A stretch of 64,000 nt of DNA from NCBI GenBank assembly GCA_950106755.1, contig OX467090.1:1178001-1242000 (forward strand), written 5' to 3'. A program made the position numbers and the translations under genes. Positions 6,787 to 37,550 of the stretch are shown in pieces (position 1 is the first letter of the stretch; the number at the start of each line of letters is the position of its first letter). A model generated the notes under the pieces. The model was not told the origin of the DNA and did not search any database. It was given only the letters and a program-made list of their open reading frames with translations. The DNA is from Climacium dendroides (lineage: Eukaryota; Streptophyta; Bryopsida; Hypnales; Climaciaceae).

Positions 6787-6787
6787 A

Positions 6788-10559: not shown

Positions 10560-12219
10560 TCTATTGGAGAAACATAATGCATGTGCTCGAGCTCATTGAG
10601 ACAATTATTACGCGAACTAGTACAGGTCAACTGCCTACCCTCACGAATGCTTAACAATCATGTATAACAAAATGAATCGTGCAAAGACAACATCTCTGGG
10701 TTTTTTCCATAAGAACAAACAACTAGACGGACTCACAAAGTTACCAATATCAGTAATTGGAATGATTGCTCACAAGCACGGTGATGTATGTTACGCACAT
10801 TATGGTCTTGATATCTTCTTGCATGACTCAAATTACATGGTAGGGTCATTAGCGAAGCTCTTGCGAGACCTTGAACTCCCTCCAAAATACTCTTTTCAAA
10901 AATTATTTGTTGAATCAAGTTCTGTTCTTCTATTTGAAGCGGTTCTAAAAAGAGTAGAAATGTGCACATCATCACTTCGGTTGTTGCCTGAAGTTCTTGT
11001 TCCAGCAACTCCCCTTCTTCTAGATATAAACATTCAAATGGACAATGTTGCAAGGGACAACAAGAATCGGTATGTATTCGCATTTTGGTCCCTTCTCGTT
11101 GCAAAGAAGATCTTTCCAGAGGTGTACATAAGTTTCATGTTGGTGGGTCACACTCATGACAACATCGACACATTATTTGGTAGATGGAGCATGCAATTAA
11201 AGAAGAAAAGTTTTCCTACCATCCCAACCCTCATAAAGTCCTTTATGGATGTGGATTCTATACCTACAATTCTTCATTTTTTTGAAGAGGTACCTGATTT
11301 CAAAGCCTTCATAGAAGGCTTGATATTGGAAGGAGACAAAGCACTTATTAGACATACCAAGGCACAACAATTCAAGTTTTACCTCAACTCTGAAGGTGTC
11401 TCAATTATGAAATACAAGAGGTATTGTACGGATAGTGATTGGCTTTCTGAAGAAGGGGGGGTCAAATTATGGCGAGAAGACTTTGAAGGACGAAGTCTAT
11501 GGCCTCGTGGGGAGCCCGTGCTTGTTGCCCACCTTCTAATGCAAGGTGTAGACAACATCTCTAGAGGGATATCTAGATTCATCAATTATTAGGAGGCATT
11601 ATGCAATGAGAGTAGAGAGTATAGAAGATGTTTTGAGCATTTGGTGTTCTATTGGCGAGCGATAAAAGCATGTTTGTCAAAGCCAATAGTACCATTCAAG
11701 ACATTAATGGAAGGCTTTTGGCCTTCTACCCGAATCAAAACAACTACGGAGGATGAACTCAATGACGATGGCGAGATTCGTGAGGAGTTCGCTGAAGATG
11801 ATGTCTTTGTAGGGCAACGTTGCAATTGTCCGTTGCCATCTTTCCGAGTGGGGCATGATAATCAAAAGGACTTCGTTGCCCTTTGACCGGTTGATGATGA
11901 TACAAAGCTTGTATAGATTGCTAGAGCTTTGTTTGACCTTTTCACAAATCCAGAGCATCCGAATTGTATCCTAATCCAGTACTTTTGGCCAACAGCAAGA
12001 AGGCAGGATATTCAAGAATTCTACATTGGTTGGGACTCTGTGAAGAGATTGCGTTGGAAAGTCGATGAGACTTAAGAACCTATTTGGAAGGACACAAATT
12101 CTCTCATCATGGCATAGAGGTCCAAGGTCAAAAATGACACAATACAATGTGTCTTGAGAATCATTGTGGCTCAAGTTGAGGTCATCAATGGGAGTTTGTC
12201 TTTGTATAGTTTTGATTGA
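10560..12219 (+). pseudogene. DUF7869-type protein, copy B, 3' half
   Basis: The sequence resumes the copy B frame right after the insertion (EKHNACARAH opposite THVAGQRAH of copy A). The longest open part, 10660-11592, encodes the DUF7869 core: HDSNYMVGSLAKLLRDLE, then LDINIQMDNVARDNKNRYVFAF, then FMLVGHTHDNIDTLFGRWS. These match FPTDSNHTIGSIARLL, LILQLDNASGDNKNRYVFAF and FLIVGHTHEDIDALFGRWS of copy A. Stops at 11590-11592 and later (around 11883, 11917 and 12073) break the C-terminal third. DUF7869 proteins are transposase-like, mobile-element-associated proteins of unproven chemistry (family knowledge). Confidence 0.8.
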
Positions 12220-18000: not shown

Positions 18001-18201
18001 AAATCTCCACTCCCCGGAAGGTCTACCAACTAAAGGATCAATCTAGCCACTAGGAAATAAGCCCTTTGATGATTCCGGATGTCCTTAATCTATCGTTGTA
18101 GTGAGAGGAGGAAGGATGGACTTTGAGTGACTTGCTTTTCGAATAGGCCATCCGAGAAGTCATGAAAGTGCAAAATTCTCTCTTTTGTCTCAACACTTTA
18201 T
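15060..18201 (+). mobile_element. Gag-like retroelement-type copy 2, 5' part
   Basis: TCCGG/CCGGA-rich DNA contrasts with the AT-rich flanks. It encodes a gag-like frame homologous to the minus-strand copy at 8.07-9.96 kb. The 5' border near 15060 is approximate. The element stops abruptly at 18201, where the terminal repeat of the 19.3 kb insertion begins. Its continuation is found at 37551-37860: both pieces together align with the third copy at 62.9-64.0 kb, including the shared block CTATCGTTGTAGTGAGAG and, across the gap, GGTAAAACAG. This is what defines the boundaries of the large insertion. Confidence 0.7.
15317..17455 (+). pseudogene. Gag-like ORF of copy 2
   Basis: Several open pieces in varying frames form one decayed gene. 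15317-15511 is the start (MAQWVLKVYHHPYAPPFEFVE). LEEDLTRIGCVGFSHRPWN near 15.6 kb, with stops nearby, aligns with LVEDLSQMGCAGLIERPWS of the first copy. 15810-16244 (TGKFWGLAHPKEGYAISEC, NTIFGAI, PISLYLFHLYH) aligns with its conserved centre. 16934-17455 is the Ser/Pro/Glu-rich C-terminal region ending in a basic KKATPKVHASQ-type tail. At least three stops and frame changes are present. No catalytic domain is seen. Confidence 0.6.
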
Positions 18202-18229
18202 AAGGCCTTATTCGTTAAAATGAGACAAA
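18202..18229 (+). repeat. Left terminal inverted repeat of the 19.3 kb element
   Basis: 28 bp starting AAGGCCTTATTCG and ending GAGACAAA. It is the exact reverse complement of 37519-37546. The preceding TTAT (18198-18201) is repeated after the right end. Beyond the perfect part a second TCTCATTTT lies a few bases further in, and the right end has a comparable inner copy, so the repeats extend imperfectly. Confidence 0.85.
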
Positions 18230-18743
18230 TTGCAGTCTCATTTTAATTTTTCATACATGCAAGGTGGAAGAAGGGTTCATTAAATTGAGACTTGAAAATG
18301 TCAAATATGTATTTCATTAATTTTATACTATTAACTAAAGTAGCACAAACTCAAAAGTACATCTCGATTTACTAATTCCTTTGTAAAAAAGAAAACAAAA
18401 TAGTCAAAGACATTATGAAGTGAGACATTTTTAAAAATCAAAACTTTCATATGTCAAAAAACTAATATATACATGGAGGATAGCAAACTTTAACATGAAA
18501 TTAAACATATGAATTACCAAAAATTCACCAAAAACATTTAGAATACAATACTTGGAGACGCAATAGTAATAAAAAAATTTACTATTAATAGAAATAAATT
18601 TCTCATACATAGGCACACTACCATAATAAAAGTAACCAATACATATATGAATGTAAACATGCCCAAACTTGTTAATAATTACAATGAGTGCTCTAATTGA
18701 ACTACCAAAACAACATTTGTCTAATAAAATTATGAACTACAAG

Positions 18744-21629
18744 TCATTCTTCAATCATAGAACCATCGTTATTTGCAGTAGTCATGAAGGCTGCCACTGA
18801 TGCCTTAATAATTTGAATTTGTAGACTTGGAACCGTCACCTTTGGATTTTTAGTTCCATCACGAAACCGTGGCTTCCAAGCTGTCATGATACAATCTGTG
18901 CTTGACCATGTTGAAGGTATAACGCTATCTTCACGCCACACATTTCCTTGTTTGGTGTCCCAACCCTCATATGTCTCCATATTAATGTGCCGATCCGAAG
19001 TAGGCCTCCAATATTGGATTTTGATCATATGCATATGCCCTGGATCGGGACTCGAAGCCGTAATAGCCCTAGCGAGCCAAAATGGTTTTGGATCACCATC
19101 AGCAGGACGCACTACAATAAAAGAACCTGCGTGTGTATCACGAGCAACACGAAACGAAGAATGTGGACGATCACGCTTACGTCCAACAAAGTTGGCATCC
19201 TCTGCATTTTCTTCACGCAATGTGCCATTTCTTTGCATTTGATCTGTTTCATCATTGGCAATCCTTGAAGCTGGCCAAAATCCATCAAGTAATGCCTCTC
19301 GCACCTGAAGAGGTGCATCTAGAGCAGCTCTGATGCCTTTCCAATACTCTTCGAGTGGACCATTCTTCCGCCTGTACTCTCCACTATGATCATTGTTTGC
19401 CATTTTGTTCCAATGTTTAACATAGCCATTCAAACCTTTCTTTATCTCTTCAAGAGCTTTCATTGGAACTGGAGCCAAAGGTTTAGGGCTACCACTTGGT
19501 ACTTTAGGAAGTCCATCCTCAGTCTCTAACCACATTCTTATCCCATTGCCGTGCTCTGGCAACCACTTTGGGTCAGTACACAAATTTTTATACTCCATCA
19601 AAGGCCATCCTGAAGAATCCATAAAAAACTTGAATTGTTGACTTTTCGAATGCCCTCCTAATTCATCTCCACCAGTGCCCAAATAACCCTCCACAAATTT
19701 CTTAAAATCAGGAAGCTCCTCAATGAGATGAGGAATCACAGGGTGCGTTTCACAATCCATAAAGGACTTCATGAGCTTTGGAAGTGTTGGATAGTCATTC
19801 GTCTTCAATCTTGAACTCCATCGACCAAAAAGAGCATCAATGTCTTCGTGAGTGTGTCCCACAATAAGAAAGTTGATGTATACCTCACGAAAAATGCCTT
19901 TGTATACAAGCAAAGAGCAGAAAGCAAAAACATATCGATTCTTGTTGTCCCCTGACGCATTGTCCAATTGCAATATTAATATTGGTGGGAGAGGTTGAGC
20001 TGGAAGTGGCTGTTCTGGAGGTGGAAGGAGGGAGTCCAAGCAATTTTCTGCTCCTTTTAAAAGCGCCTTTGTCAATGTGGATTGCCCCTCCTCAATAGAA
20101 AATAATGCCCTCGATGAATTTTTAGGCGGGCCTTCCAAATCCCGCAACAACCTTGCAATGGATCCAATGGTATGATTCGAATCTGTTGGGAAAATGCCCA
20201 CACCATAGTGTATATATCGTACATCGCCATGACCATGAGCAATCATACCTGTGACAGCAACAGGCATTTTCATGAAGGATTCCGTCGACTTGTTCTTGTG
20301 AGAAAAGTGTGGAGAAGCCGTTCTTGAGTGATCCATTTTATCATGAATGATGCACAACATTTTGTCCGGGCATCTCACGGAAAATTCCCGATTTCCATAG
20401 TAGTACTCTCTATGAGCCCTCTGACCTGCAACATGGGTATTCAAAATATTGGTATACTTATCAAACGACTTTGATTTCCAACAAGCGCTCCTCAATTGCT
20501 TATACTCATCGCACAAGCCACACCTAGCAAAACTATCCCCACGAGCCTTGGCAGCAAATTCAGGGAAATTTTGACGGCGAATGTTGCTCAAGCCACTGGA
20601 AGAAATCGGCTGCAAATTGAACTCTACATTGGACTCATTGATTTTAGGTAATTGGTCACTCCAACGAAAAGCAGAAGGTAGAACCATCGCTGCAACTTTC
20701 TCCCCAGACTCTATTGTCCTTGTTTTGTGTGGCATTCGATCGGCATCAGACTCAATAAGAGTTCAAAGCGTGGCAGTAGCTTAAAGAGTATGCATGCGGG
20801 GGTTTTTAGATCCCACATTTCCATGCACCTGAGCTTGCTTCCCAATTCTAGCCTTCTCTTTGTACCTATAGAACGTAGCTCTTGCAATCCCATGAATGAT
20901 CCACCATGCAGTGGGGCACACTTCTCTACCTTTCAAGGTAATCCACTCTTTGCCAGCACTGTCTTTATGGATTTGCCTATGCACCTCCAAAAGTGTCTTG
21001 CTACGCGCCTTGAAGTCCTCACCTGAATATAGTTCAGTCCTTATCGCTTGGATTTGCCCACGCGGAAAAGGTTGAACACAATTTTTCTGACAACATGATT
21101 TTGTGGACACTGATGTGATCGATTCCATAGAGAGGAGAAGTTCTTTCTTGGGTGGAATCTCTAAATCAATCCTTTCACAAGTTGTTTCGTACGATCGAAC
21201 CCCCTTACAAATTCTTCTGCTTGATGGGTTCATGGTTGCGTTATATACATGGGTTTGGTTATGGTCATATAAGCTGACATCGTCATCTAAAAAAACTCTC
21301 TTGATGTCCCAGGAACGAAGTGACCATACATTGCCAGATGAGAAGAGTTCCTCATTCAGAGACTCAGCAATTTGAATGGCAACCCGGTCATCGCCAAGAG
21401 GCTTTCCATCTTGGTCAATGATTAACTCTGGGTCAACGTTTTGGCAAACCCCCCTTGCAAGGTCCACCCCATCTTCGTTTCGAAGAGTGACAAATTGTGA
21501 GACCCATTTTGCACGAGCAATCCCCTCGCATACCTGAACATCAGGTGGAAATGGGGGAACTGGATTCGCGAACTCATCAAATCCATGGAAATCCATTCTG
21601 CAAGCACGAAGACCAATCCTTAGATTCAT
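18744..21629 (-). pseudogene. DUF7869-type transposase-like protein, copy A
   Basis: One minus-strand frame of 962 codons runs from ATG 21629 to the stop at 18744. It is broken only by TAA (20781-20783) and TGA (20763-20765), six codons apart. Copy B has sense codons (CAA and AAG) there, so the first is a clear CAA-to-TAA change. The N-terminal part has a Cys cluster (CCQKNC) and a WITLKGREVCPTAWWIIHGIA block resembling a helix-turn-helix. From ATG 20735 come C73-x2-C76, HDKMDH at 131-136, FPTDSNHTIGSIARLL at 182-197, QLDNASGDNKNR at 256-267 and GHTHEDIDALFGRWS at 293-307. The last four are hallmarks of DUF7869 proteins (family knowledge) and include candidate metal-binding Asp and His residues. 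It lies about 500 bp inside the left end of the element; a paired-palindrome array lies upstream. Confidence 0.85.
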
Positions 21630-21854
21630 TGTTGAGTCAAAGATAAAGATGTTCTATTGCAGCAACTTCTAGTATACTAGAAACTAAACATACTCTATAT
21701 TCACTAATATTAACATCATGTCTCTATAATTTCTTATGAATACAACATCGATGAATGGATGATCCAATGATTTGTGCTATGATTCAGTCATTCATCTTCA
21801 TCTAAGTAAATACTTTCAATGCAAAGTTGCAAACACTTTATTTATAGTTGACAT

Positions 21855-22524
21855 TATCATCGCCCCGACGATAACCGGAAGTTGTTGTTACTCAGAGTTA
21901 TCGTTGACTCAATGATAACTCTCCTCAACAAAATTCATTTCTTCATTCGTTGGATGTGATGAAGAAATAATTCAACCCAATGCACAATCTCGTTTGAAAT
22001 CATAAGAAATTGAAGTATCTACACCTTTGAAAATTTCTGATAAGATTATCATCGACCCGACGATAACTGGAACTCGAAGAACTCAAAGTTATCGTTGCCA
22101 CAACGATAACGATCTTCAATGAAACTCCTCTCATGATTCGTTGGTTGTGACGAAGGAAAAATTCAACCCAATGCACATTCTTCTTTCAAATCTTAAGAAA
22201 TTGAAATAGATACACATTTGCTAAGAATGCCGATTGAAAAAATCTGACTACGTTATCATCGACTCGACGATAACTAGTAGCAAAAGAATTCAGAGGTATC
22301 ATTGACTCAACGATAACTATCCTCAACGAAACTCCTTTCATGATTTGTTCAATTTGGCAAAGAAATAATTCAACCCGATGCACATTCTGCTTTGGAATCA
22401 GAAGAAACTGAAGTAGCTACACATTTGCTAGGAATGCCGATTGAAAAAATCTGACTACGTTATCATCGACTCGACGATAACTAGAAGTCAAAGAGGTCAC
22501 AGTTATCGTCGACTCAACAATAAG
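21855..22524. repeat. Four repeats of about 207 bp, each with two palindromes, upstream of copy A
   Basis: Palindromes lie at 21855-21875, 21897-21919, 22045-22067, 22088-22110, 22252-22274, 22296-22317, 22459-22481 and 22502-22524. Within a pair the start-to-start spacing is 42-44 bp; pairs recur every 190, 207 and 207 bp. The best copies have left arm GTTATCATCGA, centre C and right arm TCGACGATAAC. The DNA between pairs also repeats (for example GCCGATTGAAAAAATCTGAC). The array begins about 230 bp upstream of the copy A start, where a promoter would be. Confidence 0.85.
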
Positions 22525-24604
22525 TACCCTCAATGACAGTATTGAGGTAATGGAATTATCCATGAAATACTCCGACATTCACGCCGCAAAAAATGGGCAT
22601 TGCAAACAACTTTGTTACAACTGTCTTCACCAAAAGCAAGAGTAACCAATTCCTTATAGTCTACAGGCTCGCTCAACAAATATAACGTCTTCACGCATTG
22701 AGATGTCACAAACATGGACCTTCAATGACTAGTTTCACGTACTTCCTGACATCCATATGTACAAAACTAACTCACCACCAGACGAGGTCAATGGCAACTA
22801 ATTTAAATACAAACTACACCTTGTATCTAAGAACTCACAAACAAGAAGAAATAACTTTGAGGACCTGAACTTGTCAATGTGCTATGCAGACACACTTGAA
22901 GCACAAGAGAATAGCAAGAGCAAAAGAGTCTCCTCGGCGTGTTTGTGGAAGAAGGCGTGTCTGGCAAGTGAAGTTGTCCGTGGCAAGAGATGGGCAAAAA
23001 GTTGGAGAAAGCGAGAACATTTTAGCGGGCAATTCCAAATTTCAAAATTCCTACAAACTCCTTGATTCCTGGCTGTTCAGTCATTCGCTTGAAGGCGCTT
23101 TTGCCATCTTTCTACAAAAAAGATGTGGCTCCACTAATGCTTTTTTCAAAAAAAAATTGTCCATATACAGAATTGTCTGCTATAGTTCTAGTAGGTTGAC
23201 TTCTCAGGTCATATGCCCATCGATTGCTCAATATTTTTAGGCCTTTTCTTGGTGGCTTATTTTCTATCAAATCCATTTTTGGGTTTTAGGATTTCGGCTA
23301 TTCAGGCTATGAATTTTTAGAGGTTTACGGCTTCTAGGGTTTAGGGTTTAGGGTTTAGGGTTTTCAGGCTATGAATTTGTAGGGGTTTAGGGTTTTTAGG
23401 CTATGAATTTTTAGAGGTTTACGGTTTTGGGTTAACGCTTTATGGTTTAGGATTTGTAGGCTGTGAATTTTTAGAGGTTTAGGATTCGGGGTTTAGGGTT
23501 AATGCTTTTGGGTTAGGGTTTGGAGCATGACAAATGGGTTTTGAATATATTTAGGGCTGTAGGTTTTAAGGTTTATGTTCTGTCATTTCATCATGCAAAT
23601 AGGGTTTAGGGTCGCATTGATGATAAAAAATGGAGATACTCTTCTATTTCTTCATGAAGGTGCAATGGAATAATGTACCAATGAATAAGATGGAAAATAG
23701 TATTGTTGAATTTATATTTCATTTATACATGCACGCTTGGTGGAATACTTGAGAAATGAAAAAAAATTGGGACATTTTGTTGCTCAATTATTCTCCCATT
23801 TTTTCATGCAAGTGTGATGGAATAATGTAGCAATGAAAAATATTGGGAAACAATGCAGCTTAATGTATTTGTCATTTACTGATATACGTTTGATGGAATA
23901 CCAGAGGAATGAAAAAAAATGGGGAGATAATGTGCTCAATTATTCTTCCATTGTTTTTTTCATGCAAGTGTTTTGGAATACCATAGAAATGAAAAGAAAT
24001 GGAGAGATAGTGTTGCTCAATTAATTCTTCATTTATTTATAGAAGAGCCAGAGTCTTGGCTTAAGGATAAGGGTTTATGCTTTAGATAATATCATATAAT
24101 TAGGGGTATGTTGTACGTTGTGGATTTGTGGGCATTTAAACTAAAAAAATGTGGTGTAAATAAGATATTTCACTTCTAAATTTGTCCTTTTCTTAAATAT
24201 ATAATAACCGGAAACACCAAAACAAAATGGGTCATTATGAATCATGTAAGCATAGTGTAAAAATGAGCTCCCGCTCATTGAGAATATTTTTGGTTCAGTG
24301 CTTAACGTGACTTATTAGTGTCATAATCATTTATTTGGGTATGATTCAAAAGTGGACGACATCCACAAGAATGAGAATTCATTGCAAAATTTGAAGACTT
24401 GTGAGTTATGAGATTCAACCTAAAGTAGTAGTACATCCATAGTTCTCTTAATACCCCCCTAAACCATAACATGGCTAGGGGCTAATTAACAAAAACTAAA
24501 GACTTAAGCGTAGCATCTTCAATAATAAGTCCAAAATATACTACTAAAATTGATTTCGTTTTTAGAATGAAACATTTCAATTCCAAAGACAGTGGTGTAG
24601 TCAT
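22525..24604. other. Spacer with degenerate telomere-like repeats
   Basis: No supported gene. A 118-codon open frame at 22884-23240 has no recognisable domain. At 23336-23363 there are about four TTTAGGG units, followed by a looser repeat (GGCTATGAATTTTTAGAGGTTTA type) to about 23530. From 23.6 to 24.0 kb an imperfect repeat (GATGGAATA...AATGAAAAAAA...CTCAATTATTCTTCCAT) recurs roughly every 130 bp. The rest is AT-rich. Confidence 0.5.
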
Positions 24605-25180
24605 TTACAAAGAATTTTTGGAAATATGCATTTGGTGGACTTTGGTGGCATATCCATCTAATCCTATCGAAACAAGACCGAATTGGTCATTAAAAAATTG
24701 TTGTAATTGCCTGCCAAATTGATCCAATTGCATCCAAATAGAGGAAGCAATGCTATCACCAAGTCCTTTAAAACTTTTTTGAATAGAATCTGGTATTTTA
24801 TTTTGATGGTACTTTACTACATTGCCTTCTAATTTTGCTCCACCATGTGCAACATTGCCGTGACTTACAGATTTGTATCTCCCCCGCTTTGGATTTTTTT
24901 GATTATCTTTTGCTAGATATTGGGATGTTTCATAATAGTGATTTACTTCAACTAGAGTTCGTTGGTAATCAAGGTCAGTAGTCCACATATTGGGAATATA
25001 TATCATTATGACATGGTCAAACTTTAAGTCTTCAATGTTCCTAATTCCCATTTGTATAATATCAACACCATTCAAGATCATTAAACTTTTGTTCAATGTT
25101 CGAAATACTATATTGTTGTTGTAAATGTCTTGCCAATTTTCTTGGAAAGTTAAAGTACATTCATTAATAGAAAAGACCAC
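24605..25180 (-). CDS. Unknown 191-residue protein inside the 19.3 kb element
   Basis: Uninterrupted frame from ATG 25180 to a stop at 24605. The protein is hydrophilic, with a mixed N-terminal half (WQDIYNNNIVFRTL, DHVIMIYIPNMWTTDLDYQRTLVEVNHYYE), a basic QKNPKRGRY stretch, a Gly/His segment and an amphipathic Gln-rich C-terminal half. I recognise no domain, and no membrane segment or signal peptide is evident. It may be an exon of a longer gene, because sequence upstream stays partly open. A GGGCCC-centred palindrome array begins 40 bp upstream of the start, repeating the arrangement seen at the other genes of the element. It could be element-encoded or a chance frame. Confidence 0.4.
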   Translation of the reverse strand: MVFSINECTLTFQENWQDIYNNNIVFRTLNKSLMILNGVDIIQMGIRNIEDLKFDHVIMIYIPNMWTTDLDYQRTLVEVNHYYETSQYLAKDNQKNPKRGRYKSVSHGNVAHGGAKLEGNVVKYHQNKIPDSIQKSFKGLGDSIASSIWMQLDQFGRQLQQFFNDQFGLVSIGLDGYATKVHQMHISKNSL

Positions 25181-25214
25181 AACATTACTGAACTGCCAAG
25201 CTAAAATGATGCTT

Positions 25215-25362
25215 TACTTTGGGCCCAGTTGTAGTACTTCGGGCCCTGAGTGTAGGAATTGGGGCCCCAAGTGCTAGAACTACGGCCCCAAAGTATCTCA
25301 ACTGGGCCCCAGTTGTAGCACTTGGGGCCCCGAGTGTCTCAACTGGGGCCCCAAAGTGTCTC
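25215..25362. repeat. GGGCCC palindrome array, period about 21 bp
   Basis: Seven GGGCCC or GGCCCC cores occur at about 25220, 25240, 25262, 25283, 25303, 25325 and 25345. Several sit in longer palindromes such as CTTGGGGCCCCAAG. Spacing is 20-22 bp, close to two turns of the helix, so bound proteins would lie on one face (inference). The array is directly upstream of the minus-strand ORF that starts at 25180. Confidence 0.75.
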
Positions 25363-25459
25363 TACCTTTTACATTTCTAATTAAAATAGAGATGTAGAAG
25401 TTCTAACCCTAAACTTAAAAATCTCTATATAAATAGCTTGTATTATAAATTTATAAAAC

Positions 25460-25690
25460 CTAAATTGAATGAAGAGATGTATTGAAGAGCAAGTTTTCTA
25501 AAAGAATTATAAATTTGCTTTAACCAAACTCAACAAAGAGATGTATTTGAGTGAAGTTATCTAAAAATATCTTGAGTTTACTTTAATCAAACTCAACAAA
25601 GAGATGTATTTTAGAGCAAGTTATCTAAAAACATCATGAGTTTACTTTAATCAAGTTCAACAAAGAGATGTATTAAAAAGCAAGTTATCT
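25460..25690. repeat. Tandem repeat, about 67 bp, four units
   Basis: The motif AAAGAGATGTATT followed by AGCAAGTTATCTA recurs about every 65-68 bp from 25460 to 25690, with diverged copies. No coding capacity. Confidence 0.65.
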
Positions 25691-25974
25691 AGAAAGAAGT
25701 CATTTTCTATTATTGCAAATATATTAAAACTTTTATATACAAAATATTATAAGAAGACCTTTGAAACAAACTACTGATTTAATTTGTCTTATTTGTTTGT
25801 CTTGTTTGTGAGAAGTTCTTTTTATACAAGTTTCTTTTATAGGATGTAGGTTACAAATCCAATGGAGGTTTGCTCTAAGTAAGAGGCTTTATTTCCTACT
25901 TCCATCTTGTATGCTTATAAGTATGTATTAACTATTTTTGAGTTACAAATTTGTAATGAAGTTATTGTATAAAA

Positions 25975-26370
25975 ACTAAGAAGATAAGTTGCCATCTTAC
26001 CTTTCTTTATATAGATTATAATATAGTATATATAGGTTTAATGATTTGTACGTTTAGGGAAAGTAAGAAGGTAAGAGGCCTCTTTACCTTTCTTTATGTA
26101 GTTTATTTTGAAGTACATTTAGGTTTGCTAAGTTTTAAGTTTAGATTGAGGAAGTTTGAAGGTAAGAGGCCTCCTTACCTTTTTTTATATAGTTTGTTTT
26201 AAAGTACATCTAGGTTTAATAAGTTGTAAATTTAAAGAAAGTAAGAAGATAAGAGGCCTCCTTAGCTTTCTTTATGTAGTTTGCTTTGAAGTACATTTAG
26301 ATTTGCTAAGTTTTTAAGTTTAGAGGAAGTAAAAAGGTAAGAGGCCTCCTTACTTTCCCTAGTCCATAAG
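25975..26370. repeat. Tandem repeat, about 89 bp, with GTAAGAGGCCTCCTTAC palindrome
   Basis: Four to five units starting near 25981, 26071, 26163, 26249 and 26338. Each full unit contains GTAAGAGGCCTCCTTAC, a near-perfect palindrome centred on AGGCCT, followed by a TTTCTTTATGTAGTTT...GAAGTACATTTAGG segment. It is the fourth palindromic array in the element, with a core unrelated to TCGA-N-TCGA. Confidence 0.7.
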
Positions 26371-28515
26371 AACTCTTCTCACTAAGTACCTCTCGGTACC
26401 GAAAACACCTTTTCAATAAGCGGGCCATGCATACCAAATGATTATGGCCCAACTATTGTCATAACAATTTTAATTTTAGAGGAAAAATATTATGGAAATT
26501 AGATGATGAATAGAAAATGAAATATTCAAGAAAATAAAAAAAAATTGGAAATGAAAAAATATAGGTATTAATAAAAATTTAAGGTTCATAAATGCTTGAC
26601 TTTTTTTCACACTAATGTGTTGCAATGCTAGTTTTTGAACAAAATATGATTGTTTTCCAAACTTTTTATGTGTGAGTTTTCAAGTCCTACTAATTACAAA
26701 TAGAACCCTAGTATGCCAGACTCCATTTAAAAATTCATAAGTAATTCATAAATTCTCCAAAACTTATGAAACGACTTGGGCTAGAATCCTCATCAAATTT
26801 TCTTTAACTGAAAAATGAGCTAAAAATATTCCAGTCCAAGGAAATACATGAAAAAAGGGGACTAGCTTAGAAACCTCCTCCCTTAGTTACCCTGACAATG
26901 CCATCTTGAAATTTTCTTCTAGTGAAAGAAAGGGCAAAATAAATTTAAATCCTCCAAAATCTCTAGAAGGCCTAATTTCCTTTAGGTGAGCACTTTCAGG
27001 ACCTTCTACCTTAGGTAAGTCATATGGAGGTTCGGGTGTTGTAAGGGAAGGTTCGGATTCGGGAGGTTCGGGAATGTAGGACGAGGTTTGGGACGAGGTT
27101 CGGTTCGACCGTCAGGTTCGTGTATTCGTCGTCGTCGTCGTCGTCACGCGGTGCAAGTTTCCAGTTGCTCCGACTCTTGCGATGCGTTTTCAGCTGCCTC
27201 AATTGTGTGCGCAATTTTGTTTTAGGGTTGCGTGAAGTGCGAGCGATTGCGTTTTCAATTGCTGCATTGACGTTTGTAAGGGATGCGTCAGTTGTGTGAG
27301 CTCCATTTTGCGAGTTGATTGAGGGTTTAGGGTGAGGAAGCTGAGCTCCAGCCCGCGACTTTGTGAGTGGGTGACCTTGATTCTGCGAGTTTGTAAACGG
27401 CTGAGCTCGATTCCACGAGTTCAATCGAGAGCGGTTAGAATCTGCGAGTTCAATTGGGAGCGGCAACAATCCATTTTCTGAGGTCAATCGGGGTTTCCGG
27501 TGCTTCGCAAGGTATGAGGTTCTTGGTGTGACTTGTGAGCTCCATTTTACAAGTTGATTTAGGGTGTACAGTGAGTGACGGAGTGCTTCCACGAGTTTAA
27601 GGATTAATGTTTTCAATCTGTGCACGCTTGTTTCTGAGAAGTTGGATTTCTGAGTGAATTTGTGAGTGCTAACATTCTTTTGGGCGCTTGTTTTTGCGGT
27701 TTAGGGTTTGTGTTTGGCAGCGATTGTTTTAAGTGCTTTTGTTTGTGTTTGTGAGCGCTCATGAGTTTGAGGGCTTCTGCTTCTGCATGCCGCGTTCGTC
27801 CCAGCGAAGTGGTTTAGCATTCATGGCTGTTTTTTAGGGTAACATGTCTAGTTCTCTACTTTGTGAACGCTTGTTGTTTCAACCAATTGTTTGCTTTATT
27901 TATTGTTGCGAGTTGATCATGTTCAGGGTTTAGGTGCTACCGTCAAGAAGAGGGGCACGAGATTGCTGAAATTCTGGAGTACCGTCACCTTCTTCTTCAA
28001 ACAGCGTCAAGGCAGGAGTTTGTAATAGGTGCTCCCAATCTCTGCTTCATGTACATGTATAGTTAGTTTCTGAACCCTTCCTATTGTGGTTCAAGACTTG
28101 ATGTTGTTCAATTCTATAGTTGCATGTGTTTAGGGTTTAATTTTAATTTATACAGATGTGACGATAGCTCTGCAAGTAGTCTAAGACCTGACATACTCGT
28201 TTTAGATTCCAGGTTGTAGTTTGTAGTATCTTGCATGGTTTAAGACTTGAATTGTGCATAATCACATCGTTTCCATATCATGCATCTTACATTTCTCTAA
28301 TGGAATTGCTTTGTGGCCATGGCATTTTCAGAGTTTGAAGGGTACGTTGAGCATCTGCTGTTCAAACTTGACACAAGTAGCGTCTCCCAACTTCCAGGTT
28401 TGTCCACTGAAGTAGAGAAACAAAAAGCTAATTCTTTTCATCATGCAAGCATTTAGGGTTTAGATGCAGAAATTAAGGCTTCTACACAATGCCCAGTCAA
28501 GTCCACGACAAAAGT
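26371..28515 (+). promoter_or_regulatory. Spacer and likely promoter/leader of the ParB-like gene
   Basis: 26.4-27.0 kb is AT-rich and empty. From 27.03 kb base composition rises, with repeated GGTTCGG motifs (27033-27120), a GTC microsatellite at 27127-27146 and recurrent CTGCGAGTTTG/GGTTTAGGG phrases up to 28.4 kb. A 201-codon minus-strand frame here (27020-27625) is a composition artefact. Together with the acceptor TTTTGACAG just before the start codon at 29442, this suggests a promoter and untranslated leader for the plus-strand gene, with a leader intron holding the palindrome array. Exact exons cannot be placed. Confidence 0.35.
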
Positions 28516-28519
28516 CTGA

Positions 28520-29017
28520 GTTATCCTCGAGTCGAGGATAACCTCGGTCCATCACAAAACTCAGGGTCATCCTCGAGTCGAGGATAACCTAGGACCACCG
28601 TCGAACTTAGGGTTATCGTCGAGTCGAGGATAACCTGGTTCTAACGCAGAACTAAAGGTTATCCTCGACTCGAGGATAACCTACATCCATTGTAGAACTC
28701 AGGGTTATCCTCGACTCGAGGATAACCTACATCCATTGTAGAACTCAGGGTTATCCTCGACTCGAGGATAACCTAGGTCCACCATAGAAGTCAAGGTTAT
28801 CCTCGACTCAAGGATAACCTAGGTCTACCGTAAAAAATGACGACCCTTAAACTGTAGAACTCAAGGTTATCCTCGAGTCGAGGATATTTTGGTTCAGCCT
28901 AAAAATTGAAGGGAATCCTCCAGTCGAGAATAACCTGGGATACATCACCGCTACCACAATTCCAGAATTCATTGGTACATAAGAAGTCACCCTGGTTATC
29001 CTCGACTCGAGGATAAT
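28520..29017. repeat. Ten palindromes at about 46-bp period upstream of the ParB-like gene
   Basis: Palindromes start at about 28520, 28566, 28611, 28658, 28703, 28749, 28795, 28865, 28911 and 28994. Seven successive ones are 45-47 bp apart; later gaps are 70, 46 and 83. The typical site has left arm GGTTATCCTCGA, centre C or G, and the exact reverse complement on the right (25 bp). Linkers such as CATCCATTGTAGAACTCAGG are also repeated, so the array grew by tandem duplication, yet the palindromes are better conserved than the linkers. A further site lies at 29305-29324. The array ends about 420 bp before the start codon at 29442. Confidence 0.9.
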
Positions 29018-30482
29018 TTGGAAGAATTTGATGTTAGCCAGTAGGAAGCAAACAATCATTTATAGAAGATAATCAACAAATTAATATCAAATGATCAAAA
29101 CTGAACTCAAATAGAGTTGAAGAACAGTATTCTGCAAATAATTAAAAAAACTTCAGAATGTTGTATTATACGATCATCAATACAACACATAGAACATAAA
29201 ATCATATTGCTTCTTAGCCACGAACGTCCTCAATGTATCATTCAGTCATTCACATGAAATGACCATTGAAATTTGTAGTTCGTGCTACGAGTCCCCTCAC
29301 TCCAATTATCCTCGAGTCGACGATGCTCTGTCCAATAATGCGATTCAAACAACAGCAAACAAATATGACTTCCTTTGAAAATTAAGTATAGCGACCTATA
29401 ACTAAATGCCAATAATGTACGTCTTTTGACAGGACCTGAGAATGGATTCGGAGGATGCGTACGACTATTCAGTGACAAAGCACCACCTTGAACCCTTCGT
29501 CAATCCTGTCGAAGATGGACCCTTCATTTCGGAAATGGAGGATAGCTACGGGAAACTATTCCAGTTCAAATCGCATGTTGCGAGTTGGAGTTTTGGTGTG
29601 AACCGATGGAAAGACTACGTCTTTCTCCGGTACAAAGTCACTGGGCAGCCGGGTTACCTAGTGTGGAATTTGAATGAGAAGGTGATGTTCATAGATACTC
29701 ACCACAACAACTACGTTGCGGTCGTCCTACGTGAGGTAGATGACGTTGGGAAAGCCGGAAAATATTGTCACTCAATAGTGCTCAATGTCAACTCAAATCA
29801 AGCAGAGTTTGACCTTGAGAACCTCATGACATTATTGGAGGGCTCTGAAATGGAGTCCCTCAATCAGCAATTCATAGATAGCAGATATCTTCCATGGAAA
29901 ACCGGGACTGGCAAAGCTACTGCGACCAAGCTCAGCCTTATCTTCCAGACATTAGATAGGTACGCTTTGTCAAACGTTCAAGCTCCTCCAAGTGTGGGAG
30001 GGCAAATACGTAATATTCAACAACGAGAATCGACTGGAAAGCGGAACCTTCCATCTGGAAGCGGAGGAGACAGAAGTAGGGGGACTCAACCTAGTCAACC
30101 CATGCCGGAGACTCAAACTCAAGGTTCCATTGATCCGAGCCCAACACCACCAAGTAAGAGAAGAAGGAAAAGTTTAGTGGGAGGTGCCACGGGTGCAGGT
30201 AGCTCGGGGTCTGCATTGACATCAGTTGGAACTCAATCAGAAGAGCCAATGGAAGAGTTTCAGAGGCACGCACTCATTTAGAGGGAGTTCTGGACAGAAC
30301 ACAAGCAGTGTTTTCTCTTCAATCAGAACACTGTTAGTGTGGACATCAAGCAATGCGTGATTGCGAAAGAACAGTATATAATCCGTGCACTGCAAGAGGA
30401 CATGGTCAAGTCCATGAAAGAGCAGCTCATCCAACTCATCGACATCAAGCAGCGGCAGAAAGTATGCTTGACTCCAGTGGAC

Positions 30483-30854
30483 AGAAATAATCAACTCTTG
30501 AAAATGAAACCCCAGAAGTGGGAAGACATTGAAAATGGCCAGTTCATGATTATCAATGGCCAACACAGTATAACAGCATCCAAGGAGCTTCAGAAGCAAG
30601 GGTGCGGTGAAAGCAGGCGTGTGGAACTGTAGAGGTGGGACGCATACATTGTTTGGACGTTGGACCCAAACAAACTTCGACACATTTCGCGCTTCTACAA
30701 TGCAACGAACCACCTAGACCATACGCAGCCGACGTGGGGGAATCAAATAATCAGCTGTAGGAACATCTGGATCGCCTGCAAGCGTCCCACTCTTGAAGTG
30801 ATTGATCATGTGGTGCGACAGAACAAGGCTGTATACAGTCCGGTCAACTACAAG
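30483..30854 (+). other. ParB/Srx-like segment of the giant gene
   Basis: Around residue 365 of exon 1 the protein reads KWEDIENGQFMIINGQHSITASKEL. INGQHxxxA resembles the GxxRxxA-type signature of ParB and sulfiredoxin-like domains (often DGxHRxxA), with His in the third position. About 50 residues later comes RFYNATNHL, which could correspond to the conserved Asn-containing helix. In bacteria such domains are fused in front of DNA methyltransferases (family knowledge), and here a methylase-like block follows in exon 2. One stop (30630) lies inside. Confidence 0.5.
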
Positions 30855-31749
30855 GTGAGTGAGAGCATACCACCATCGTCGACTCGACGATACCTGCTGC
30901 ACTACAGCATTGAATTCCTTTCGTCTTGTATTCATTGATCAATAGTTTGAATTTTAAATAGAACTCAATTTCATGATGGACTTTATGTTTTTCTTATCAT
31001 CCTCTCTCTCTGTCCTTATTTCTCCATAACCTCTTCTTTGCAGAGCTTTACCGATGCAGTTGTAGATCGTTTCCAGAATATTAATCCAAAAGGAGACGGT
31101 GCAACAATAAGGGGTCCGTCGGACCTGAAGAACGAAATCTAGATAATAACCCTCTCGGACGAGTTGTGGGATCACTGGAAACTCTTCCTGACAAAGCACG
31201 GTGAAGGCGAGCTCATTGACCCAGCTACCCTTAAAATGTATAAGGAAAATAAAGGGTACAAATTGAAGCCTGCCGGATTACGAAGGGAGTTCTTTAAACA
31301 TGCTGGCCATTTCACTGACAAGGATTTCGGAAAACAGGCACAACATCTGCTTGGGATTACTCCTGGTCGGGCTACACCATATCCCAAGCTTTCAGTTTCA
31401 AGAATGAAGGTGTTAGCAGTGGACAACATGACAAGTACAGACTGGACTGAGCGAAGGAAGAGGAAGAAAATCGTGATTCAAGACTTGATGAGCATCAAGC
31501 CTGACTTAAAGCTTCTAGATAGCCGGAAGGACATAATCGATGAGCGGTGGAGGTCTTGGAAGTCTCGCCACCGATTCTCTTCTGCTACATGGGATTTCCT
31601 CCTTTCGTACATCAAGGCCGACTATTTTAAAAAGCGCCTACGGAATGATGCATGGTTGAAGCGCGTAGCGGACCTCGAAAAAGAATTCCCAGATGTTCTG
31701 CACATGTACAATCGCTTCATGAAGCTGAAATACAGTCTTCCTAAATTGA

Positions 31750-32723
31750 GCGGTGGAGTGGAGATACGCGGCATGGATGTCACGGCGAAGGTGCTTGTCA
31801 CCACTAACCGATTCACTTACTGCCGTCGGGAGGTGAATCTTGCAGTGGTTGACACAAGAGAAGTCCCTCGATCAAAACCCACAGCAGTCGAGGCAGCCAT
31901 AGACCCATTTCTGGACTTCTTGGACGACAAGTTGGAGCCAAGTATGAGTGCAGCCAACGTGTGGCTTTTCATATTACGTGATAGTGAGGATGTGAGCGCG
32001 GATGTTAGCTTCGCTGACTTGAACATGGCGAAGTACGATATACTGAAGTCCAAGTACATCCCATGCAAAGCGGAAATGCTCAACAACGTGACGAACCGAG
32101 GCGCCGCCCCAGATGTTCCTCTTCTCTTCCTCTTTAAGAAAGAGAACGAATTCGCTTCATCTGTATGGGATTTCATGAAGCCAGAGTATCGAGCGCCTTC
32201 GAAAACATGTCCGTATTACAAAGATGCGCACAGGAATACAGAATGCAAGTGGAGAATTCACCCCACTGAACTCCGAATGGAGTTCTATTTAGAGATCCTC
32301 CAAGCATTTGCAGTCCCTGGCAAGAACGTGCTTGGAATTTATACCGGAGTCAAGCTCATGCTTGCTGCAAAGGTAGGTCACGTTATCAATGTCATTTACT
32401 ACCATTCACTTAAGGATAATGGTCACTTTGTGGAGTGGATTTGTTAGGCTGCTGTAGTTCGTGAATCTATCGAGGAATTGTCTCGTTTATCCTCGACTCA
32501 ACGATAATCACCTAGTTTGTATAATCCGTTTTCCTGTCATGCTCTTGTCTTTGCTCTTCATACAAAACAAAGCCTGTAGGATGCTCTTGTTATCCTCGAC
32601 ACGACGATAACCTCTCCTTGTTCCCCTACGACTCACTGATGTCCTCTTCTCTTGATTCAGATGTTTGGGGCATTCTTCTATGGTTACGTCGACAAGCACG
32701 ATGCAAAGGGATATAGAAGTATA
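31750..32723 (+). other. N4/N6 DNA-methyltransferase-like segment spanning exons 2 and 3
   Basis: The strongest signal is RIHPTELRMEFYLEIL (32253-32300) followed by VPGKNVLGIYTGVKLMLAAK, joined across intron 2 to MFGAFFYGYVD. Site-specific DNA methyltransferases of the N6/N4 group have HPTQKP..LL..LI...PGD.VLDpF.GSGTT..AA..LGR...G.E at this place, and the match is position by position. Upstream, LAVVDTREVPRSK (31839-31877) followed by FLDFLDDKLEP and NVWLFIL fits the region that normally contains DPPY and the next helix and strand, but the DPPY tetrad reads DTRE. The fold is probably retained, while the catalytic and cofactor motifs have diverged. Confidence 0.5.
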
Positions 32724-33119
32724 TCATACTTTGCAGATAAACTCGACAAGAATGACTTCATACATTCAAACTCGCCGTACTCGCTCACGTATGTCCAACC
32801 CCCTCGTCGTGGACCCGTCATGGTGTTGTCTGACTCGCCTCCGTCGCCTCCCATGACACTGGAATCACCTGTTGGGACCTCCATGACGGAAAATCGAGTG
32901 CAGATTGAAGAGCTCGTTAGCTCCGATCCGGGATTGGATGGAATAAACGAGTTCGGAACAAATACATTCCAAATGCGTGCATGGTTGTCCTCGGTGTCGA
33001 TGCCAACTCTGGATCCAACTACTGATCTCGTCACCTCTGAGAATTTGAACATCCAACCTTCCTCTCTTGGATTGGTAGACGTGTTTGGTGTGTCTGACAA
33101 GAATGAACCTGCCCAACCT

Positions 33120-34187
33120 CCTTGTAATGAATCACAGGCACTCGCGGGTGTGGATCTTGTTGCCCGTCCTATCGTGGAGGATATTGAATCAGACACGGAA
33201 TTTGACAAGATGATGGAGGACAAGGCAAAGAGGACTGAAAATGTTGGGGATGTCGGCCGAGTAAGGGCGGAAGAGAATGTTGGGGCGGATGATGAACTCA
33301 TAGTTGATGCCCATGTTTCCAACTTGCCCACCTTCATTGACCTGGGCAGTGATGATGATGTTGCGGATCATCCTCGAGAATCTGATGACGATGAAGAAAA
33401 CGATGATGGCGCTCCCAAACAGAAGGAAATGAAGCCACTGCTCTTGCCCACGGGTTCCATCATCAAGGTGGAGAAGGACTATTGGAGGCTAGAAGAGGAG
33501 AAGAGGACCAGAAGAATTGAATGAATAGCAGCAAGGGCAGCAAAAGACAAAGAGTTGGCCGATGCGAATGCAAAAATAATGGAGTTGTAGATAAAGTCTC
33601 AAGCCCAAATCTCGGATCTATCGTCCCAATTTGAGCAACTCAAGCAACTCCTGTCATCCCAGTCTAGTCAACAACCTGGAAATCCCTTGGTTGTATCCCA
33701 GGCTGGGCCTTCACATCCTCTACTACCTATCTCTACATCACCAATCGTGCAGGAACTGGTTGATGGGCTCCCTCATCCTCGTATCGATGATAATGAAGGT
33801 GGTCGGGCAGTGACACCGGAAGATGTCGTTGTTTGCACACCAACTTCTCAAGTGCCAAGGATATCTTCGCCAATACCTTCAACATTTGAAGTTGTTGTTC
33901 CGGAGCCACAGATTGCCCTACAAGATGTAGGACATCATCCTCATGTCGACGATGCTGATCGTGTTGCAGAGGTCCCGGCGTCTCCGATTGAAATGACCTC
34001 CGTCCCTGAGTCGGCGAAGGCTGTTGTGGAACGCCATTCTCCCTCCTTTGATGAAGAGGAGGAGAAGGTGGACTACGGCGAGGGCAAAGAAGATCTTCAC
34101 GATACTCCTCCGGACGAAGAGAAAGGTCCTTCATCTAAGCCCGTTGAGGGGGAAGACGATTCCACCCAAGCGGGTGGATCTTCGCAG
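33120..34187 (+). other. Acidic linker and coiled coil of exon 3
   Basis: Rich in Asp, Glu, Ser and Pro. The stretch LEEEKRTRRIE...AARAAKDKELADANAKIMEL (33490-33590) is a heptad-like coiled coil interrupted by stops at 33522 and 33588. The peptide pattern HPR/HPH-x-x-D-D recurs (DHPRESDDD, PHPRIDDN, HHPHVDDAD) because palindrome copies sit in the coding sequence at 33366-33390, 33773-33796 and 33934-33959. Confidence 0.55.
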
Positions 34188-34707
34188 GTAAACTCCTCAA
34201 ATCCAGAGTATTAATTTTAGGTGGAGAGTGTGATAGTCGTTTGATATTGTGTGGATGTTTGGAATGCGGTGCGCATGAACTGCTGACTCTTATTCGAATT
34301 CATGATGCTTGACAGGATGGCGTGCCTATCCTTGAATGAATTGCGCGGACGGATCCTGTGTCCGTGGTCGACATGCGTGTAGAATAGTATAGCGTAGGCC
34401 TCAATGCGCAATCTTGACGATCCATACTTAAACGAAATTTTGACATGTATTTTATAATCTACCTTAAATAAAGTATAAGCGTTTCAATAGATTCTGTACA
34501 ATGACATCTAATTGATCCGATTTGTGCATGTGTTCATGCTCAGCTCAATACACATAGAAATGTGCAACGTCCGGTACCAATGAAAGCACTCCCTCGCGGA
34601 AGTCCCCAGTCAATTAGTGGAATGAAATGCATCTGTCCGCTTACTGGCTCTCCCACTTCTGCATTTATTCAGGTAACTCCAATTCTCATTTGTTTTGCTT
34701 TGATCAG

Positions 34708-35499
34708 GTAGCATCGGAGGGGCGAAGAGAGGTCTTGCGAACGAGCTTGCGTCCTTTGATGCCTCCGCCGCGGAGAAAATGGTTGAATATTGTCTTAGAC
34801 CTGAACGGCATGCTTTGCTAGAGCATGCCGAGGGCGTTTGCTGATAAATTGAAGTCTTATAGGCTTGAAGACAACGTTCTTAGCCATCGGTACCCGACTG
34901 TCATCGGATCGAAAGCAGTATTCGCTAGACAGAATGTCAGGGAATTCTTGCGGCAGGTGTCGGAAATTGCGCATAGGGTCATTGTGTGGTCCACCATGAT
35001 GAAGCATAATGCAGAATCAATTGCTGGGCACCTGTTCAGCAATTGCAGGGCCCCCTTCGATATACTAGGCCAGGAGTAGTGTTCGAAGGTAGAAGTCACT
35101 CTTGGAAAGTTCTTCCATCGCAGAAACAAAGTGTTCTACTTGAAGATTATTGAGGATGGCCTGTTTTCCATTCATAGTCAGGACCCGTTTTTTAACGATC
35201 GGAACACCCTTCTCATTGATGATTCTCCTGAAAAGAGTATTTGCAATGATAATGGGAATGCCTTGTTCCTCGAGACTTGGAGTCATTCCAAGCGGAGGGA
35301 CGACGTGCTCATAGGCGAGCTGCTCCCTTGGCTCCGGAGGTTGCATTCCAACTGTCCGGACGACGGGATGCAACAATACGTCAATGAGAATCGGATCGGG
35401 TTAGACCCGCCTGGTCCCGATGACCATGCCCTCCAAGATATCATTGAGGCCATGAAAGAGTCCGCGAAGGTCATGAATTGCTCATACGAGCTTTCCGGA
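34708..35499 (+). other. FCP1/NIF-type HAD phosphatase domain (exon 4)
   Basis: LNIVLDLNGMLC carries motif I (nucleophile Asp encoded at 34798-34800; the usual second Asp is Asn, as in many plant FCP1-like proteins). VIVWSTMM (34978-35001) is motif II and LLIDDSPEK (35209-35235) is the acidic motif IV. This order and spacing fit FCP1/NLI-interacting-factor-like phosphatases. Stops at 34819 and 35077 break it. In frame it follows exon 3 through a 520-bp phase-0 intron, but it could also be a separate gene; nothing else in the region provides a start codon. Confidence 0.7.
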
Positions 35500-35590
35500 G
35501 TAGGTCTACGTGTAGAGACGCGTCGCCGTAGAGTTTACACTTCGACTTAGAGTTTACACTTCCGTGTGATTGAGCATGCAGGGGTCCATG

Positions 35591-35740
35591 CACTACTAGA
35601 AAATTTTGTATTTCTGTTGTTTTGGTCGCGTTGATCCGGTCAAAATCTAACAGAAATCTGTTGGTTTCAACAGATTTCTGTCAGATTTTGACCGGATCAA
35701 CGCGACCAAAACAACAGAAATACAAAATTTTCTAGTAGTG
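35591..35740 (+). mobile_element. CACTA-type foldback MITE 1
   Basis: A 150-bp element that is almost wholly an inverted repeat (CACTACTAGAAAATTTTG...). It is flanked by ATG on both sides (35588-35590 and 35741-35743), the 3-bp target duplication typical of the CACTA superfamily. It lies in intron 4 of the giant gene. Confidence 0.9.
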
Positions 35741-35915
35741 ATGCATTTTGTACTATGTATTTGAAGTGAATGACCATTCGTTGTAATTAATATATGAAGC
35801 TCTTTTTTTATCAATCATCTTCTGGCTCAATGTTTAAGAATTTGTTTGCCCTCGAAGTACTACTTGATCGATGCAAATGGCAGGAATTGAGCTTATTAAT
35901 AATTATTTAGTGCAG

Positions 35916-37001
35916 GTCGAAGGTGTTCGCTTTTTGGGATCACTTGTGAAGCAAAAAATCACGAGGAGCCTCCTCTCTGGGTCGGAAAAGGCACGATCGA
36001 GTGACTCTAAATCCGATGGTGGAAGTTGTGAAACTGCTCCCTTCTCTAAGCCCTACATGTTGCGCTCTGCCGCGGACGCCGTGTCGGCTGCCATCGACTA
36101 TTCAAAGGGGGATATTGAGGACGGCGTTGTGGACAGCCCCCCGAGTCGTGGACCCGGAAGGACTCCTATCTGTTCTCCGTCACCGTTGAAGCGCACGTCC
36201 TCGAGCCACGGACGATCCGCATCACCAACTTCGTACATGGGCACTCCCACAAGTCGGAAACTAAAGCTCCCGGTCGACAACGTTGTGAGATCACTACTAG
36301 AAAATTTCGTTTTTCTGTTGTTTCGGTCGCGTTGATCCGGTCAAAATCTGATAGAAATCTGTTGGTTTCAACATATTTCTGTCAGATTTTGACCGGATCA
36401 ACGCGACTGAAACAACAGAAAAACGAAATTTTCTAGTAGTGGATATCCTCGGCTCAAGGATGACGTTCAAACTTCGACTCGGTTGGCTTCTATCCCCATT
36501 GTTGGAGTGGAATCAGAACTACTTCTAAAGGAAGAAGACGAGATTTTACTTCACGGGAAGGTTGTTTCATTCTGTAAAACATCGTTTGATGGTAATTCAT
36601 CATCTCGTTTGAAGTCTCGCGGAGCGAGTCGAACGCCGTCATCGGATAGTCTTTTTCGACAAAGAATTGTTAGAGAGCAAAGGCTAAGTATGGGCTCAAA
36701 ATCTACCAAGGCTGTAGTTGTAGACCTAAACCCTAAACCGATTCTACCAAGGCCGCCCCTCAAAGGTCCAAAATCTCATTCTGCTTTGGAGGTTCCCGAA
36801 AACATGAGGAGGCCAAAGCGGAAAGCTAGGGCTACGCAGAGTTTGAATGATTGGGATACTTCTGATAGTCGAGGTCGGCCGCATTATCCTTCGAGGCGTG
36901 ACGATATCCTACGACGGCTTGCAAAAGTGCAAGCAATGGAAGCAGCAAAGATTGAAAGTTCGGAGACCAAAGAAAAAAAGTGGGAGAAAATGTGCAAATA
37001 A
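35916..37001 (+). other. Basic Ser-rich C-terminal exon of the giant gene, split by a MITE
   Basis: From an acceptor TTTAGTGCAG the frame is open to 36291, continues after MITE 2 and stops at 36999-37001. The MITE plus its 3-bp duplication is 153 bp, so the frame is kept, but the MITE adds a stop. The protein is Ser/Pro-rich (SPPSRGPGRTP, SPSPLKRTSSS), then basic (RRPKRKARATQ), ending in a Lys/Glu-rich helix. No catalytic motif is seen; a nucleic-acid-binding tail is plausible. The remainder to the terminal repeat at 37519 is empty. Confidence 0.55.
36292..36441 (+). mobile_element. CACTA-type foldback MITE 2, inserted in an exon
   Basis: A 150-bp near relative of MITE 1, with ends CACTACTAG and CTAGTAGTG and GAT target duplications at 36289-36291 and 36442-36444. 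It sits inside the last exon of the giant gene: the translation before it (KLPVDNVVR) continues after it (YPRLKDDVQTSTRL) in the same frame. The insertion is therefore younger than the gene. Confidence 0.9.
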
Positions 37002-37518
37002 CAAAGACAAGTTTTAGAATCCATCAATTTTATAGTCTCTTTTACCATGAGTAGAATGATTGTCAAATTGTAAGTACTCAGAGAAATTGAGTATGTACGG
37101 GCATATTGTAGTTACTATAAATAGCATAGCAAATATACAAAAACTAGAACACAGAGGAAGTGCTATGACATGTAACTATGAAGCACTTTATTGTTTTCAC
37201 ATGGATTTGGGAAAATCAAAAATAAACTCAATGATTCGTTTGTTTTCACTGTAAATGATCTATTCTATTGCAAATGACACGGTTCCTCCAAGCTTCTTAA
37301 TTGATCGTGAACTCATTCGCTTGATTAATTTCCTTGAAAGCACCTTTTGAACCATCGCATTATTAAATTGATTGTCATCATATAAAATCACCTCTTCTAT
37401 CTCTTTAGATGCAACTTCTTGTTGATGTTGACAAAACAATTCTATTTATCATTGAGTTCAACAACTCTTTGTGAAATGGGGCTTTGGTTTTCAATTTTTG
37501 AAGTCTCAAAATGACCAT
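37002..37518. other. Right subterminal region of the 19.3 kb element
   Basis: AT-rich non-coding DNA between the last exon and the right terminal repeat. No gene or array seen. Confidence 0.5.
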
Positions 37519-37546
37519 TTTGTCTCATTTTAACGAATAAGGCCTT
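37519..37546 (-). repeat. Right terminal inverted repeat of the 19.3 kb element
   Basis: Exact reverse complement of 18202-18229, ending ...CGAATAAGGCCTT, followed by TTAT (37547-37550), which matches the TTAT before the left repeat. Confidence 0.85.
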
Positions 37547-37550
37547 TTAT

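Follow-up and report, generated by a model that had tools for sequence, protein, structure and literature searches.

Does the long segment between two inverted repeats in a moss chromosome represent a single transposable unit and, if so, which of its genes could account for its movement? The question is raised by a 64-kb stretch of the Climacium dendroides genome (contig OX467090.1, here C39, positions 1178001–1242000; hereafter "the window"), in which 19,345 bp at positions 18,202–37,546 carry a gene with a DUF7869 domain and a second gene unit, gene 2. Our analysis indicates that this feature is probably one decayed copy of a giant (~19 kb) family of cut-and-paste-type DNA transposons, equipped with a DUF7869 transposase of the DDD type and a trans-acting gene 2. 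The family itself is real and widely dispersed—it has inverted 28-bp ends, generates 4-bp duplications without a target consensus and is present as many dispersed copies, in which two divergently oriented gene units travel together.

A 19-kb unit and its dispersed copies

As an earlier, sequence-only reading of this DNA had noticed, the terminal repeats are perfect and TTAT is present on either side of the element. The 28-bp ends, which start with AAGG, are exact inverted copies of each other and the sole two matches with up to three mismatches in the window (chance expectation, 0.00); beyond them, the next-best terminal-repeat-like match has nine mismatches. The insertion interrupts a host retroelement, and each flank alone matches a minus-strand relative that has no such interruption, with 89.7 bits for the left and 95.4 bits for the right flank—compared with maxima of 34.0 and 38.3 bits, respectively, for 100 shuffled versions of each. 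These two matches stop 41 bp apart in the relative (63147 and 63106). Upon rejoining, the flanks align with the relative through the junction under permissive scoring (61.6% over 930 columns, E 1.5e-44), ordinary blastn scoring returning a 55-column piece only. The proposed match of the rejoined retroelement to a third copy stands, but its coordinates (62.9–64.0 kb) were slightly off, the relative being located at 62758–63642. Perfect ends, a 4-bp duplication and flanks that rejoin on an uninterrupted relative support the claim that all 19,345 bp were inserted as a single entity.

The whole 412.6-Mb assembly (123 contigs) was searched for further copies. With a 199-bp left-end query, the best 40 of 307 candidates were scored, together with the best 40 of 583 for the right end; ends were paired by contig and strand, and the resulting copy counts are lower bounds. 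The terminal repeat might have turned up only once, or never in pairs; instead, at least 35 paired copies were recovered, i.e., the window copy, copy D (C35 26024117–26043122, 19,006 bp, with TAGA on both sides), a set of 30 pairs and three further pairs. Identical 4-bp flanks were found in 35 of 35 paired copies. Within the set of 30, the flanks comprise 26 distinct 4-mers, mismatched pairings agreeing by chance in 10 of 870 cases; the duplication measures 4 bp in every pair, with the match holding over 5 bp in one and over 6 bp in none, and each end differs from the 28-bp repeat at no more than one position. Homology in other copies begins within 4 bp of the left end of the window element. 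A preference for TTAT as target was rejected, given 26 different 4-mers in 30 pairs. Segmental duplication as the origin of all copies was likewise rejected, because the pairs bear their own 4-bp duplications; on C1, however, four pairs that share flanks two by two are, by eye, duplicated sites, and 33 distinct insertions remain.

Lengths in the set of 30 pairs fall at 18.6–20.8 kb in 18 cases and at 22.9–80.3 kb in the remainder, and the three further pairs span 22.3, 70.2 and 118.0 kb. Insertions (13.8, 19.2 and 3.6 kb) were encountered in three of six copies for which 25 kb were read; copy D alone was followed as far as its right end, so that the lengths of the remaining copies are explained only in part. 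The 13.8-kb insertion, at joined positions 3170–16940 of copy B, has CACTATAAGAAA inverted ends, lies within the DUF7869 gene and is perhaps a CACTA element. We also observed that the 40 scored left ends split into two groups—ten at 98–100% identity and 30 at 85–92% with longer matched stretches—which suggests two subfamilies with a common terminal repeat. Between both genes, at 24.3–29.2 kb, the window copy is largely unlike copies D and F; these two share 99% identity in this segment, and recombination between subfamilies is a possible source of the difference. The features of the window are collected in Table 1.

Table 1. Features of the element and its surroundings (positions in the 64-kb window).
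Feature	Position	Strand	Remark
Left target-site duplication copy, TTAT	18198..18201		
Left 28-bp terminal inverted repeat	18202..18229	+	exact inverted match to right end
DUF7869 gene, putative DDD transposase	18744..21629	-	Pfam PF25273, 3.5e-46
Array of 8 palindromic sites (23 bp each), carried on 207-bp repeats	21853..22524		directly upstream of DUF7869 gene
9 palindromic 23-bp sites, mostly on 46-bp repeats	28520..29017		upstream of gene 2
First coding part of gene 2, with NGQHS-motif domain	29442..30850 (end approximate)	+	homologues P0170-P0174
Gene 2, exon with apparently eroded N6-adenine-methyltransferase fold	31038..32375	+	predicted fold of homologue P0124
Two palindromic sites, putative intron	32486..32611		right after methylase-like exon; other families have sites at the corresponding location
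Gene 2, FCP1/NIF-type phosphatase domain	34789..35547	+	PF03031, 3.6e-09
Foldback insertion resembling a miniature inverted-repeat transposable element (MITE), 73-nt arms	35591..35740		absent from copy D
Second foldback MITE-like insertion	36292..36441		absent from copy D
Right 28-bp terminal inverted repeat	37519..37546	-	exact inverted match to left end
Right target-site duplication copy, TTAT	37547..37550		
Uninterrupted relative of interrupted host retroelement	62758..63642	-	aligns across rejoined insertion site
Decayed second DUF7869 gene, another kind	5759..12216	+	gap of ~3.8 kb between 6774 and 10558

Gene content across four related families

The DUF7869 gene consists of a single frame of ~960 codons (start codon set by inspection), broken in the window copy by two in-frame stops near 20.77 kb. 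Long homologues exist, e.g., P0001 with 954 amino acids, and the named ones among the 120 homologues listed belong to Ceratodon purpureus and Physcomitrium patens. The structure predicted for P0001 comprises an RNase-H fold, an N-terminal helical part and a C-terminal BAH-like small barrel, and the invariant aspartates of DUF7869 sit at RNase-H positions. Judging from these aspartates and the predicted structure, the gene looks like the transposase and not, as had been assumed, like part of the carried content. A search of PDB sequences yielded weak, unrelated matches only. DUF7869 is listed in 30 of the 32 pairs checked (the three further pairs fall outside this gene count), in agreement with the prediction that copies would share gene content.

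Gene 2 displays three recognizable parts, all of them damaged in the window copy: two in-frame stops in the NGQHS stretch, one in the methylase-like exon and further ones in the FCP1 domain. The NGQHS part had been labelled ParB-like, but no significant ParB match was found in Pfam (P0170, P0171), in PDB sequences or in NCBIfam and PHROGs (P0170, P0172, P0174). That the element could be a virus that became integrated, or a plasmid-like replicon, partitioned by a system of the ParB-parS type—a thought invited by palindromic arrays adjoining this gene—is very improbable. In addition to the lack of a significant ParB match, Pfam scans returned no replication or capsid domain, both the inverted ends and the 4-bp duplications are characteristic of transposons, and pattern-based scans of viral contigs for DUF7869 relatives matched 1 and 52 stretches, none of which was confirmed; the exact terminal repeat was not found in viral contigs either. 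The methylase-like designation fared better, but only in part: the structure model of homologue P0124 has a methyltransferase fold, but no full DPPY/W catalytic motif of DNA N6-adenine methyltransferases was recognized. At the motif-IV position (located by inspection), an aspartate occupies 47 of 49 rows without PPY, and motif I is altered, so that the catalytic motifs look eroded; PDB sequence searches with this part gave weak, unrelated matches only. The FCP1 assignment was upheld, with a Pfam NIF score of 36.9 bits for the frame read across stops (curated cut-off, 21.8; the open frame alone, at 20.5, falls just below).

Among the best 97 methylase-like loci scored (59 close and 38 diverged; neighbour counts refer to listed genes only), FCP1 follows within 15 kb downstream, in the same orientation, in 53 of the 59 close and 22 of the 38 diverged loci, and on the opposite strand in 0 of 97. 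DUF7869 is listed within 30 kb upstream of 42 of the 59 close and 7 of the 38 diverged loci. Moreover, three related families were recognized besides that of the window (F1). F2 is a 19,200-bp element nested within copy C, its flanks being a 4-bp duplication of element positions 1233–1236; its gene order is that of F1, with identities of 46, 24, 30 and 34% to P0001, P0170, P0122 and the window FCP1, respectively. F3 spans 16,819 bp with GAAG on both sides, and F4 spans 16,632 bp. All four families have the common order of transposase (minus strand) followed by the NGQHS, methylase-like and FCP1 parts (plus strand). F1, F3 and F4 differ little in their terminal repeats, the core of which (TATTC.TTAAAATGAGA) is retained at the right end of F2.

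Several observations weigh against a two-gene transposon family driven by DUF7869. No partner was found among the 40 scored right ends for 5 of the 40 scored left ends; the flanks of F4 do not match; two of the 32 pairs lack a listed DUF7869, although one of them (C5) does contain the gene, interrupted by a nested F2; listed DUF7869 genes are close by in only 7 of the 38 diverged methylase-like loci; and Foldseek searches with the DUF7869 model gave weak E-values and no significant match. The last of these would suit an element moved in trans by another enzyme, with DUF7869 as a passenger. However, we regard such a scenario as improbable, since the gene is listed in nearly all pairs, recurs in all four families and has invariant aspartates at RNase-H positions, and since Pfam scans of the element (18202–18999 on the minus strand only) detected no further transposase domain.

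Outside the element, the window contains the decayed second DUF7869 gene of Table 1, which shows 34–43% identity to P0001 and 46–57% to the Physcomitrium protein P0031. Two similar-looking frames at 9182–9994 (minus strand) and 15771–16244 (plus strand) resemble, by eye, a retroelement gag-like protein. Beyond the host, three DUF7869 relatives occurred in genome contigs whose records are titled bacterial bins, and which are probably misbinned eukaryotic DNA. One of them (L093, CADCWO010000071.1, a cyanobacterial bin) carries a stop-free DUF7869 gene with 47% identity to P0001 over residues 22–938, most likely moss DNA within a metagenome bin. Among the titles listed in the open-licence literature, none described the element, and DUF7869 went unmentioned.

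Palindromic arrays and the proposed role of gene 2

The arrays of palindromes pointed out in the sequence-only reading are far from random: 20 sites of GTTATCNNYGASTCRNNGATAAC (up to three mismatches) occur in the window, all inside the element, against 0.04 expected. The same palindrome is found 22 times in copy D, 14 times in F3 and 17 times in F4, and not at all in F2, which contains 21 sites of another palindrome, GTTTAGGNCGGWCCGNCCTAAAC (a pattern derived from F2 itself), absent from F1, F3 and F4. In each family, clusters are situated ahead of the transposase gene as well as ahead of gene 2, with one to three sites right after the methylase-like exon. That placement is equivalent while the sequence has changed suggests that the palindromes are recognized by a factor which the element encodes and which varies from family to family. 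Gene 2 has diverged more than the transposase between F1 and F2, and this one contrast favours gene 2 as the source of that factor. Both foldbacks close to the right end were also considered as parts of the palindrome system, and rejected: they are missing from copy D and hence represent later insertions, not ancestral features. A third related foldback MITE-like palindrome is located outside the element, at ~38244–38330.

In the mechanism that we propose, the DUF7869 transposase would cut at the terminal repeats and insert the element into target DNA whose strands are cut with a 4-bp stagger. Gene 2, from its position and covariation with the palindromes, would encode one or more proteins acting in trans on the element, and its product would most likely recognize the arrays before both genes and thereby keep them expressed. 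Such an effect might amount to anti-silencing or promoter control, by analogy with the action of VANC on VANDAL elements, which are Mutator-like. The TnpA sites of En/Spm, which serve as transposase-binding enhancer sites, provide another precedent, under which the transposase itself would bind the arrays and gene 2 would have a different role. In line with this, each of the four families has an array at a distance of 3.4–4.9 kb from its left end, and the transposase, too, differs between F1 and F2 (46% to P0001). We nevertheless consider this rather unlikely: the arrays are positioned away from the ends, preceding each gene and also occurring inside gene 2, and the right end of F2 retains the F1 repeat core though its palindrome is wholly different.

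Comparison with known transposons and enzymes

The statement that the element matches no plant DNA transposon class proved too strong, given the published traits of Sola. Sola elements are described with a DDD transposase, 4-bp duplications, terminal repeats of 11–1124 bp and some members exceeding 15 kb (PMC10741241), the duplications of Sola2 being AT-rich (PMC3627910). The chances are about even that our family consists of giant members of the Sola superfamily, with DUF7869 as the Sola transposase and gene 2 as a lineage-specific accessory. The 4-bp duplication (35 of 35 pairs), the 28-bp repeats—inside what is a very wide range—and the large size fit, as would the DDD enzyme predicted here, and as does occurrence in mosses: Sola is known from Physcomitrella patens (PMC10741241), and the named DUF7869 homologues listed come from Ceratodon and Physcomitrium. 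On the other hand, the comparison is one of published descriptions and not of transposase sequences, and Sola termini are very variable, so that the ends are not decisive. Assignment to Sola would also be a classification and not another mechanism, leaving gene 2 and the palindromes unexplained; neither a gene-2 block nor palindromic arrays appear in the descriptions as far as these were available (PMC10741241). There is a smaller chance, advanced here only tentatively, that these giant elements constitute a eukaryotic DNA transposon superfamily of their own, built on an ancient and obligatory core of two genes: one for a DDD transposase (DUF7869) whose tail resembles a chromatin reader, the other for a methyltransferase-fold/FCP1 protein repurposed as the family-palindrome-specific factor. 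Protein and sites would then co-diverge, each family regulating its own copies only.

Other classes agree less well with the family. CACTA (En/Spm) elements are similarly large—usually >10 kb, some >20 kb—but have CACTA/G ends and 3-bp duplications (PMC10741241), which differ from AAGG ends and 4-bp duplications. The 4–6 bp duplication of Ginger would fit, in contrast to its 40–270 bp repeats with TG...CA ends, and Mutator elements generate 7–12 bp duplications (PMC10741241), compared with 4 bp in 30 of 30 pairs here. The duplications of piggyBac and Kolobok are TTAA-specific (PMC9587614), and none of our 26 4-mers is TTAA. For the methylase-like part, the closest systems are the β-class DNA N6-adenine methyltransferases (M1.HpyAVI, M.BceJIV and CcrM), along with MTA1 and METTL3; relative to the β-class enzymes, the gene 2 part retains the motif-IV aspartate but has an altered motif I and no PPY.

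The significance of the family lies in a proposed function for DUF7869, a multicopy domain in the host genome, and in an instance of DNA transposons, 19 kb in size, whose multi-domain accessory gene is conserved and which have spread to at least 33 distinct host sites. The nearest parallel for the arrays is VANDAL, also a plant transposon, whose short, family-specific motifs form tandem repeats in introns and ahead of the VANA gene and have changed in concert with a protein that the element encodes (PMC5735166). The placement of the motifs and this co-change resemble what we observed, but the VANDAL motifs are 8–9 bases long and non-palindromic, and binding and loss of methylation have been demonstrated there (PMC5735166), whereas in the moss family a comparable activity is suggested by motif position and family specificity. 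The family could offer a second case, besides VANDAL, in which the co-change of an element protein and its DNA sites can be tested.

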